Positions 40,289 to 53,753 of a DNA stretch of 64,000 nucleotides are shown piece after piece. Each line of letters begins with the position of its first letter. Positions within the stretch are counted from its first letter, which is position 1. Location: positions 62,001 through 126,000 of the forward strand of contig JAQTUV010000004.1 in NCBI GenBank assembly GCA_028707175.1, written 5' to 3'. Below the pieces are notes generated by a model, which saw only the letters and a list, made by a program, of their open reading frames with translations, was not told the origin of the DNA and ran no database searches. Source of the DNA: Sideroxydans sp. (GTDB taxonomy: Bacteria > Pseudomonadota > Gammaproteobacteria > Burkholderiales > Gallionellaceae). A program made the translations under genes and the position numbers.

Positions 40289-41182
40289 TTATTGATTGCG
40301 AGTATCGCTCAAAGCGCGCACCCAACGCTCACCCCAATGGTGCAATCCTAACCCCAATAAGATACTTGCCGTGCCAAACCATACTTGCGGCAATACCGTC
40401 TCATCGTTCAGCGCATGCCCCAACAGTAACGCCATCACGGGCGTGACCAAAGTAATGAGCGCAACACGCCCCGCTTCCATATTTTTAATCAGGTAGAAAT
40501 ACAAAGCGAAACCGAGCACTGAGCCAAACGTACCGAGATACACCGTAGCCGCCACAGCGCGCTCCGGCAACTCGTTCGGCCAATGGCCATCTGCCAACAA
40601 CCATGCACCACAAAACAGCGGCAATGCCACGGCCAACGTACCCAAGGTCATCGCCAAGGCTGAGCTGTCATCCCCGATGCGCTTGATCCACACCAAGCCT
40701 AACGATTGTGAGGCCATCGCAAATAACACCGCAATGACACCCAGTGCAGAACCTGCGCCCAAATCGAGTCCGCCATGGAACACCAGCCACAAACCGAGCA
40801 GCCCTAACACCATCCCTGCGAGCTTATTCGGCGTGAGTGATTCTTCCTTCAGCCACAGCATCGCGCCCAGACTGGTGGCCAAGGGAGATAAGCCAAACAA
40901 AACAGCAATCATGCCGGAGGTGACAAATTGCGATGCCCAATAAGTCAGCATCATCGCGATGAACATGCTCAATCCGCCCGCCAGATAAGCTTGCACCGCT
41001 TTGCGATGCAAAGGAAAGCGCATCCGTAGCACCGCCAACAGCACAACACATAGCAGCACACCGATGGTCATACGCGAGAACACCGCGAAACTGAAACCGA
41101 CACCGAGCGCGCTCCATTTGATGGCGAGCGGCGTGGTAGACCAGATCAAAATGACCGAAACGAATGCTGCTGGAAGCGACAT
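40289..41182 (-). CDS. EamA/DMT superfamily permease (second paralogue)
   Basis: A 297-residue EamA-type permease with ten hydrophobic segments in two repeats (VSVILIWSTTPLAIKWSALGVG at the start, and SALGVIAVLFAMASQSLGLVWIK in the second). It resembles RhtA/YdcZ-like drug or metabolite exporters. A good GAGGAG precedes the ATG. Unusually, about 60 bp upstream of its ribosome-binding site stands an intrinsic terminator, itself preceded by a structured leader with its own promoter, so it may be under transcription attenuation. The substrate is unknown. Confidence 0.9.
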   Translation of the reverse strand: MSLPAAFVSVILIWSTTPLAIKWSALGVGFSFAVFSRMTIGVLLCVVLLAVLRMRFPLHRKAVQAYLAGGLSMFIAMMLTYWASQFVTSGMIAVLFGLSPLATSLGAMLWLKEESLTPNKLAGMVLGLLGLWLVFHGGLDLGAGSALGVIAVLFAMASQSLGLVWIKRIGDDSSALAMTLGTLAVALPLFCGAWLLADGHWPNELPERAVAATVYLGTFGSVLGFALYFYLIKNMEAGRVALITLVTPVMALLLGHALNDETVLPQVWFGTASILLGLGLHHWGERWVRALSDTRNQ

Positions 41183-41242: not shown

Positions 41243-41277
41243 AAAAACAAAAAGGCCACAGAGTTCGTCTGTGGCCT
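41243..41277 (-). terminator. Strong intrinsic terminator in the permease leader
   Basis: AGGCCACAGA-CGAAC-TCTGTGGCCT with a 10-bp perfect stem, followed by TTTTTGTTTTTAG on the minus strand. It lies 61 bp before the EamA permease start and would block transcription from the upstream promoter unless an antiterminator forms. Confidence 0.9.
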
Positions 41278-41303
41278 AGGTAAGATACAACTCAAATGCA
41301 GTG

Positions 41304-41399
41304 TTAACTCTCTAGACCACCTTGCGCGCGATGCAGCGCCTTGCGCATAAAGACGCAGGGGACGACGTGTGCATGACGAATGATGTTCAGAGAGTTCAT
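41304..41399 (-). CDS. Possible leaderless 31-residue leader peptide
   Basis: An ATG at the predicted transcription start opens a 31-codon frame with no ribosome-binding site, so it would be a leaderless message. The peptide starts MNSLNIIRHAHVVPCVFMRK and ends GGLES; the 5' pairing strand of the leader lies at its start and the 3' strand runs into its stop codon. It could be a regulatory leader peptide in the attenuator, or simply an open frame in structured RNA. No codon-usage test was possible. Confidence 0.25.
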   Translation of the reverse strand: MNSLNIIRHAHVVPCVFMRKALHRAQGGLES

Positions 41400-41406
41400 G
41401 CGATGG

Positions 41407-41436
41407 ATTATCGGGGCGTGAATGTAAGCGTGTCAA
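41407..41436 (-). promoter_or_regulatory. Sigma-70 promoter of the leader RNA
   Basis: A consensus -35 TTGACA at 41436-41431 and a -10 GATAAT at 41412-41407 are separated by 18 bp. The predicted start is about 41400, six to seven bases below the -10. It is the best sigma-70 promoter noticed in the window. Confidence 0.8.
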
Positions 41437-52562: not shown

Positions 52563-53753
52563 TTAATCAGTACTTTCTAAGACTATTTCCAACTCACGTA
52601 TTTTTTTGCTTTTGCGCTTCTCACTATACATATTTCGATCCGCCACCAAAATCAATTCAGACAGACTGTTGCCATCGTCTGGATAGATCGAACACCCGAC
52701 ACTTCCTCCGATACAGATGCTGTCTGCGCCAATCTCAAAAGGCTCGGCCAATGCTTGTTGTAGCTTTGCAACGACATCACGCACATCCGCAGCATCGTCA
52801 ATCCCATTCACGATCACGGCGAACTCATCACCACCAATACGCGCACAAAAATCACTGGTGCGAACTGTTTCCACAAGGCGTTGTGCCACTGCTCTGAGCA
52901 ATTCATCACCGACAGTGTGCCCATAACGATCATTCACGGGCTTAAAACCGTTCAGATCAATACTCAGCAATCCAAACTTACTCTCGTTGCGCATCGCAAT
53001 ACTCACTGTATGCAGGAACATCTCACCGAAATAACGGCGATTCGCAATCTCGGTCAATGGATCATGTAGCGCCATATGCCGAATCGCTTCTTTAGCCTGT
53101 TTGTGCTCTTGAATCTCATCATGTAGACGTTGCTGAAGTGTGATGGCTTCAACAGCAGTCTGAGAAATAACTCTGGTTTTTTGCAACACCATCGCCTGCC
53201 ATATGAAAGATCCGCAAAACATCATCATGTAGTATTCATCATATTGAATACTGACTTTCCACAGAAAATATAGCGACATGGGAAACAGACTCACGGCATT
53301 CACCAGTAGATAAAAGCGTGGCATCACCGCAAAACTTAATGTGACGAGCGTCACCAACGTAGACAGAATCAAGAATAGGCCCAATTCGATAACATGCTCC
53401 ACATTGCTTGGTAGCAAAAATACTGCTACGCCATAGAACATGGTTGCGAAGACACCCAATGCGATTCGTATATTTAGATATGGTCGATAGTTCTCCAGCG
53501 TGATCGCTGTCGTAGCAACACTTTGCTCAAAAAAAATCAAAGCTGCCGCAACCACAACGAACAGAGAGAACCAAATGATGATGTGCCACAGGGGGACTTC
53601 TGCCACAAACAAAAGGATGGCGATGATTAATCCCCCCGCCAAGAAATAGAACATATTTCCGCGAGCATGCGAAAAATACATCTGCGCCCGTTCGTACTGG
53701 GCGCGCTCCTCGATAGACGACGCTCCACTTACCGAATCTTTCACGCCTACCAC
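52563..53753 (-). CDS. Membrane-bound diguanylate cyclase (GGDEF)
   Basis: A 396-residue GGDEF protein. About six membrane segments occupy the N-terminal half (FYFLAGGLIIAILLFVAEVPLW, HIIIWFSLFVVVAAALIFFE and others), then a coiled linker and the GGDEF domain with LLSIDLNGFKPVNDRYGHTVGDELL and the intact RIGGDEFAV active site. The inhibitory I-site RTSD lies five residues upstream, as expected for allosteric feedback by c-di-GMP. The start is a GTG at 53753 with GGGGGAG upstream. It is 118 bp downstream of the DUF455 gene on the same strand, near EAL and chemoreceptor genes. Confidence 0.94.
   Translation of the reverse strand: MVGVKDSVSGASSIEERAQYERAQMYFSHARGNMFYFLAGGLIIAILLFVAEVPLWHIIIWFSLFVVVAAALIFFEQSVATTAITLENYRPYLNIRIALGVFATMFYGVAVFLLPSNVEHVIELGLFLILSTLVTLVTLSFAVMPRFYLLVNAVSLFPMSLYFLWKVSIQYDEYYMMMFCGSFIWQAMVLQKTRVISQTAVEAITLQQRLHDEIQEHKQAKEAIRHMALHDPLTEIANRRYFGEMFLHTVSIAMRNESKFGLLSIDLNGFKPVNDRYGHTVGDELLRAVAQRLVETVRTSDFCARIGGDEFAVIVNGIDDAADVRDVVAKLQQALAEPFEIGADSICIGGSVGCSIYPDDGNSLSELILVADRNMYSEKRKSKKIRELEIVLESTD

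Follow-up and report, generated by a model that had tools for sequence, protein, structure and literature searches.

In the window, by which we mean the whole 64,000-nucleotide stretch of Sideroxydans sp. DNA analysed here, a gene for an EamA-type (DMT) transporter is preceded by a promoter and an intrinsic terminator, which raises the question of what decides whether transcription continues into the gene. A preliminary description of the sequence had left two options for this leader, a ligand-sensing RNA or a leader-peptide-controlled element. The conserved feature turned out to be a reading frame with a codon-specific signal, which speaks against a riboswitch or ligand aptamer and for control by a leader peptide. 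With a probability of about three in four we take the element to be a leaderless leader-peptide attenuator, in which termination of transcription would depend on a translating ribosome.

Layout of the leader and its transporter gene

All features of the element are encoded on the minus strand (Table 1). The TTGACA-18-GATAAT promoter and the perfect 10-bp terminator before EamA that had been described previously were both recovered, and in an alignment of relatives the -35 and -10 elements are kept while the spacer drifts. The leader ORF and the conserved antiterminator had been missed. The 158-nt leader RNA is more stable than its shuffled versions (z -2.56, 2 of 200 as good); within 2.1 kb, promoter-like sites are not enriched (2 vs. 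1.9 expected) and terminator-like sites number 7 vs. 2.7 expected.

Table 1. Positions of the leader features and the EamA gene in the window
Feature	Position	Strand	Basis
Sigma-70-type promoter TTGACA-18-GATAAT; -35 TTGACA at 41436-41431, 18-nt spacer, -10 GATAAT at 41412-41407	41407..41436	-	sequence; elements conserved in relatives
Leader ORF (putative), 31 codons, MNSLNIIRHAHVVPCVFMRKALHRAQGGLES; ATG (41399) 7 nt past the -10, stop ends at 41304	41304..41399	-	invariant ATG and codon-like substitutions in relatives
Region 1 (AACUCUCU), pairs with ORF end (1:2 helix): AACTCTCT 41396-41389 complementary to AGAGAGTT 41313-41306	41389..41396	-	folding and pairing statistics
Codon 22, CTG (Leu), Trp in most relatives; 16 nt 5' of region 2	41334..41336	-	
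Region 2, GUGGUCUAGAGAGUU, final ORF codons	41306..41320	-	
Region 3, CUAGGCCAC, antiterminator partner, overlaps terminator 5' arm; conserved helix GUGGUCUAG (41320-41312) with CUAGGCCAC (41279-41271)	41271..41279	-	
Intrinsic terminator, 10-bp stem, 5-nt loop, U tract: AGGCCACAGA-CGAAC-TCTGTGGCCT at 41277-41253, then TTTTGTTTTT to 41243	41243..41277	-	
EamA (DMT) transporter gene; ATG at 41182, 60 nt past the terminator; own ribosome site GAGGAG at 41194-41189	40289..41182	-	Pfam EamA 1.3e-31; fold

The encoded protein has EamA domains and the DMT fold, a likeness that it shares with YddG and other EamA/DMT transporters. A PDB sequence search with it gave 0 matches at E 0.01, and an assignment to the aromatic amino-acid exporter YddG was rejected (NCBIfam scores of 16.8 bits for the window and 37.6 bits for locus L137 vs. 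a cut-off of 300). The fold family also includes an importer, and the export of a metabolite that had been suggested was an assumption without support. RibN is an EamA-type importer.

Distribution, reading frame and Trp codon of the leader

The leader was found by sequence search in 75 of 114 loci (E < 0.01), which represent 58 distinct sequences with several genomes present twice. Among 80 EamA loci fetched by protein it was detected in the same way in 53, and inspection of the other 27 by eye or pattern gave 9 diverged leaders, 5 loci with promoter and/or terminator remnants only, 1 ORF without Trp, and 12 loci in which none was seen. Five EamA loci (L052, L066, L072, L080, L087) have a terminator, some also a promoter, and no leader ORF between them. 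With model R1 (E <= 0.001), 27 of the 399 order-level genomes and 49 of the 99 family-level genomes had matches; with model R2 the figures were 64 of 369 for the class and, at a threshold of 0.0005, 20 of 249 for the phylum, all of these totals including false matches.

Of 29 order-level loci that were read, the window genome's three included, 21 lie directly before EamA, two before a chorismate mutase gene followed by EamA, and six before neither. Among the 29 best-scoring class-level loci, with those of the window's genome excluded, 27 precede EamA; 26 of these 27 leaders carry a Trp codon in the ORF, and at most class-level loci the gene behind the leader starts 14-40 nt past the match. At the phylum level EamA follows in only two of ten loci read (L174 and L177), both with Trp, although L177 belongs to the same class as the window and its ORF was read by eye in the absence of a promoter match. 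For a sample independent of the RNA, the N-terminal 60 residues of an EamA protein served as query against 114 class genomes; 36 matched, and the best 30 loci were used, one being the window's own. A readable leader was present in 27 of the other 29 (none was seen in L204 and L206), with an in-frame Trp in 25 (24 of 26 full ORFs plus the contig-cut L203); L196 and L212 lack it. The script found no terminator in L197 and no promoter in L198, L211 and L212. A second or third Trp occurs in 11 of the 24 Trp-containing ORFs, mostly closer to the end. Eight of the 26 peptides of this sample recur in the class-level set. Relatives of the leader thus precede orthologous EamA genes in Gallionellaceae and in many other families of the class.

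Several loci differ in what follows the leader. In L106, L109, L110, L137 and L138 the leader terminator and EamA are separated by a small chorismate-mutase-like gene; all that is left there in L111 is a short ORF resembling it at the N-terminus. In L160 a complete leader, Trp codon and terminator included, stands before an unrelated hydrolase-like ORF, a possible re-use or rearrangement, and L163 has a promoter, an ATG 6 nt past the -10, a 30-codon ORF without Trp and a terminator, upstream of an aminotransferase-like gene; both were rejected as EamA leaders, being either not this element or not before EamA. L140, L141, L143 and L122 were likewise set aside since no EamA was found.

The leader ATG is invariant in all 52 alignment rows. 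Permissive -35/-10 elements could be parsed in 97 of 99 pooled leaders, with the ATG 6 nt (n=52), 7 nt (n=35), 8 nt (n=8) or 5 nt (n=2) past the -10, a spacing that is partly given by construction, as ATGs were chosen partly by their place after the -10 motif. From this spacing the leader RNA probably starts at or beside the ATG and would be leaderless. The ORF measures 29-38 codons in 54 of 56 leaders and 46 codons in one; one further leader was mis-parsed. An open frame by itself is weak evidence, as frame 2 is also open over a span of 29 codons in 47 of 56 leaders and 40% of shuffled leaders keep an open frame. The substitution pattern fits frame 0 (0.62 vs. a null of -0.08, sd 0.07), with values of -0.65 and -0.08 for frames 1 and 2, as computed from 134 leader pairs that are not independent. 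Together with the conserved start, these codon-like substitutions mark a putative translated short ORF. Its peptide matched no family in Pfam or NCBIfam, and the peptides of different families are nearly unalignable across the class apart from the Trp.

In the pooled set a Trp codon is present in 84 of 91 parsed leaders, and it lies 10-20 nt before region 2 in 67 of 91, compared to a mean of 12.3 (sd 3.2, maximum 23) when codons were permuted in 1000 runs; 8 of 99 leaders had been left out because their terminator was not parsed, and cases in which the region-2 finder picked a GUGUGGC that shares bases with the Trp codon (distances of about -2) were counted as misses. Trp accounts for 61 of 198 codons at the pause site vs. 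7 of 1620 upstream. TGG triplets in frames 0, 1 and 2 number 88, 35 and 9 within codons 15-25 and 28, 45 and 63 elsewhere in the ORF, a bias indicating that the codon, more than the RNA letters, is under conservation. In leaders with a GGCCGC arm, which UGG fits less well, Trp is found at the site in 14 of 21 and somewhere in the ORF in 20 of 21. At the order level 66 of 72 leaders have Trp, 59 of 72 at a distance of 12-19 nt from region 2, most commonly 16 (27 leaders). Other residues occupy the site in L007 (Gly) and in L020, L042 and L070 (Cys), and L133 has Trp only inside region 2. Many peptides carry basic residues just before the conserved Trp. A ribosome with a codon in its P site reaches about 16 nt downstream, so a ribosome paused on the Trp codon would extend just to region 2. 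The placement in 67 of 91 leaders is therefore such that region 2 would be free under a stalled ribosome.

Competing pairings

The pairing between the 5' segment of the RNA and a later segment that the preliminary description proposed is indeed complementary and is partly conserved, with 69.5% of cells paired over 52 rows vs. 18-47% in slid controls and 7 of 500 shuffles as high. When own partners were compared with permuted ones, 5 of 3000 permutations (72 order-level leaders) and 9 of 3000 (26 class-level leaders) did as well, the control segment being not significant (1540 and 992 of 3000), and the own partner beat distant ones in 43 of 72 and 19 of 26 leaders. For the whole upstream ORF, pairing with region 2 is not significant (mean z -0.14, 846 of 2000 permutations), and we therefore regard only the 5' codons as region 1. 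The 1:2 helix at the 5' end is weaker than the antiterminator but genuine.

The same description had also recognised mutually exclusive pairings with a competing terminator before EamA, and this holds; the competitor it named does not. The motif AACTCT does lie in the terminator loop and 3' arm, but only 10 of 52 rows have it, and the conserved competitor is the 5' arm of the terminator. Region 2 pairs best with its own arm (0 of 5000 permutations as good, also within arm type), in a test that left out 10 of 99 leaders with no suitably placed Trp or an unparsed terminator. The arm change from GGCCAC to GGCCGC is accompanied by a change in region 2: the 19 GGCCGC leaders give -15.0 with their own arm, -12.4 with arms of the same type and -9.3 with those of the other type, whereas the 70 GGCCAC leaders barely discriminate (-13.6, -13.3 and -13.1). 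The flanking extension of the antiterminator fits its own partner better than permuted ones (0 of 3000 at the order level, 72 leaders; 3 of 3000 at the class level, 26 leaders; own beats distant partners in 48 of 72 and 17 of 26), bearing in mind that partner permutations do not remove relatedness. The core is nearly invariant, with no pair changed on both sides, or two on a wider alignment, and for the core alone own partners had no advantage over permuted ones (430 of 2000; 56 order-level leaders). Terminator and antiterminator are thus mutually exclusive, and their core is conserved more than covarying. The consensus fold of the 52 rows contains only the terminator and a 3-bp stem inside the ORF.

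In transcripts truncated after the terminator 5' arm the antiterminator is part of the best fold in 92 of 98 leaders (1 of 99 was not parsed), a count that leans toward this fold because region 2 was selected as the best partner of the arm. In 73 of 98 its stability equals or exceeds that of the terminator. The two are about equal in the window (-17.1 and -17.5), where the truncated transcript forms the antiterminator but addition of the 3' arm shifts the preference to the terminator. With a ribosome at the pause site, the equilibrium fold of the remaining free RNA is the terminator (-23.5), so that a switch in the window would have to be kinetic.

A possible attenuation mechanism and its alternatives

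In the attenuator that we favour, transcription would start at or next to the ATG and a ribosome would translate the 31-codon ORF behind RNA polymerase. A ribosome at the stop codon would cover region 2 (the last five codons), leaving region 3 free to build the terminator, and transcription would end before eamA. A pause about 16 nt upstream of region 2 would leave it just exposed, and it could then pair with region 3 ahead of the synthesis of the 3' arm, so that the terminator would be delayed and eamA transcribed. Without translation the 5' codons would pair with region 2 (1:2 helix) and the terminator would form. As the pause codon of the family would usually be the one conserved Trp codon, a shortage of charged tRNA-Trp is the most probable signal, and such an on-signal would better fit an importer or a scavenging role than an exporter. 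This polarity sits badly with an exporter, and also with chorismate mutase, which diverts chorismate from Trp. The leader family looks like a Trp-codon attenuator of an uncharacterised DMT transporter. We put forward only tentatively, at somewhat less than even odds, the fuller picture of class-wide leaderless attenuators, usually with one Trp codon as sensor, that control an orphan DMT transporter (and in certain lineages chorismate mutase as well) for Trp or an aromatic metabolite; the transporter would be expressed at low charged tRNA-Trp and could be an importer although classed in an "exporter" family, and the window's clade would be losing the sensor.

The window itself has CTG (Leu) in place of the Trp codon and no Trp in the whole peptide, so the Trp part of the model is not applicable to it as it stands. 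In a tree of EamA proteins (81 rows) the window groups with L036, which has Val at the site, and with L035 and L037, in which no leader was found (support 100/95); among named organisms, its EamA is closest to those of Sideroxydans and Gallionella metagenome-assembled genomes. As judged from these comparisons, the window's lineage has lost the putative sensor codon and the rest of the element is kept in this species. With Leu at the site, the Trp response is probably lost here, and the copy is probably a decaying or re-purposed attenuator. For the window alone, it is a real possibility, if one we hold slightly less probable than its opposite, that the leader is a relic without regulation whose terminator gives a fixed low readthrough, as the lost codon and the clade of loci with Val at the site or no leader at all would suggest; against this, promoter, ORF, region 2, antiterminator partner and terminator are all intact.

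For the family, the polarity problem would disappear if the peptide were a Trp-dependent arrest peptide, with free Trp or another compound stalling the ribosome via the nascent chain and the transporter being switched on when the compound is abundant. Such a system would better fit an exporter and chorismate mutase, and the basic residues preceding the conserved Trp in many peptides are consistent with it. Known arrest peptides keep several residues, and since the peptides here are nearly unalignable across the class apart from the Trp, we consider this reading unlikely. One critical Trp is also a feature of the leader peptide TnaC of the tna operon, which arrests at the stop codon and blocks Rho; unlike there, a ribosome at the stop codon of the EamA leader would hide region 2. 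Its own promoter and terminator could also make the leader a stand-alone gene for a small RNA or small protein that merely precedes eamA, and a study on Sinorhizobium meliloti describes attenuator RNAs and leader peptides (rnTrpL/peTrpL) that can act in trans (PMC7298713). We regard this as highly improbable, given that 23 of the 29 order-level loci and 27 of the 29 class-level ones have the element tied to EamA or to chorismate mutase and EamA, that in most of the latter the gene starts so shortly past the match, and that the antiterminator is conserved. We give almost no credence to a ligand-binding riboswitch with attenuator, to which the structured RNA and competing terminator had pointed: substitutions follow the reading frame, and the RNA 5' of region 2 varies widely between families in which the ATG, the Trp codon and regions 2 and 3 recur. 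Rfam gave 0 matches at gathering score in the window and in 20 related loci; at permissive thresholds nothing credible appeared, the sole weak match around the leader being mir-379 (17.5 bits vs. 56).

The ribosome-dependent attenuator proposed here has the general design of trp/his/leu-type attenuators (Rfam Trp_leader RF00513 and kin), namely a short ORF with a control codon, 1:2, 2:3 and 3:4 helices and an intrinsic terminator before the gene. It differs in being apparently leaderless, in usually having one Trp codon instead of a run, in the position of region 1 at the start of the ORF and not at the control codon, in its transporter target and in its lack of an Rfam match. One control codon is few; the Arg- and Leu-type leaders at other genes carry runs. 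According to a survey, attenuators in Rfam mainly control biosynthesis operons (PMC3766115). A further likeness is to S. meliloti trpL, a Trp attenuator whose transcript begins with the ATG of its leader ORF (PMC7298713), and which differs in its length of 14 aa, its several consecutive Trp codons and its place before trpE(G). Among the open-licence papers listed, none dealt with an EamA leader peptide, and B. subtilis EamA transporters were, according to one study, hardly expressed under the conditions studied, with inducers unknown (PMC11005379).

Leaders of a similar layout were observed at other genes. In the window's own genome (L142; contig C10, about 53480-53695) an Arg-rich leader ORF, MNRTYTSHQRIAAARATRARRARRAAFERCVESGSGLM, and a terminator stand before an argD-like aminotransferase gene, and in L139 an aminotransferase gene lies behind an Arg-rich leader with RRRR. 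Both were rejected as examples of the present element and look like arginine attenuators, L142 being apparently leaderless. On the minus strand of L180, an ORF with LLLLL that starts close to a promoter is found with a terminator just before a leuA-like ORF, an apparent leucine attenuator. These codon-run leaders suggest that attenuators of this layout are in use in these bacteria.

If our reading is correct, sequence alone would yield an inducing signal open to testing and a probable class of substrates for a widespread uncharacterised transporter, and amino-acid attenuation would reach beyond biosynthesis operons to transport. It would also mean that a control codon is kept across a class while the remaining peptide drifts, with the loci offering a natural series from an intact switch via a switch without Trp to none.
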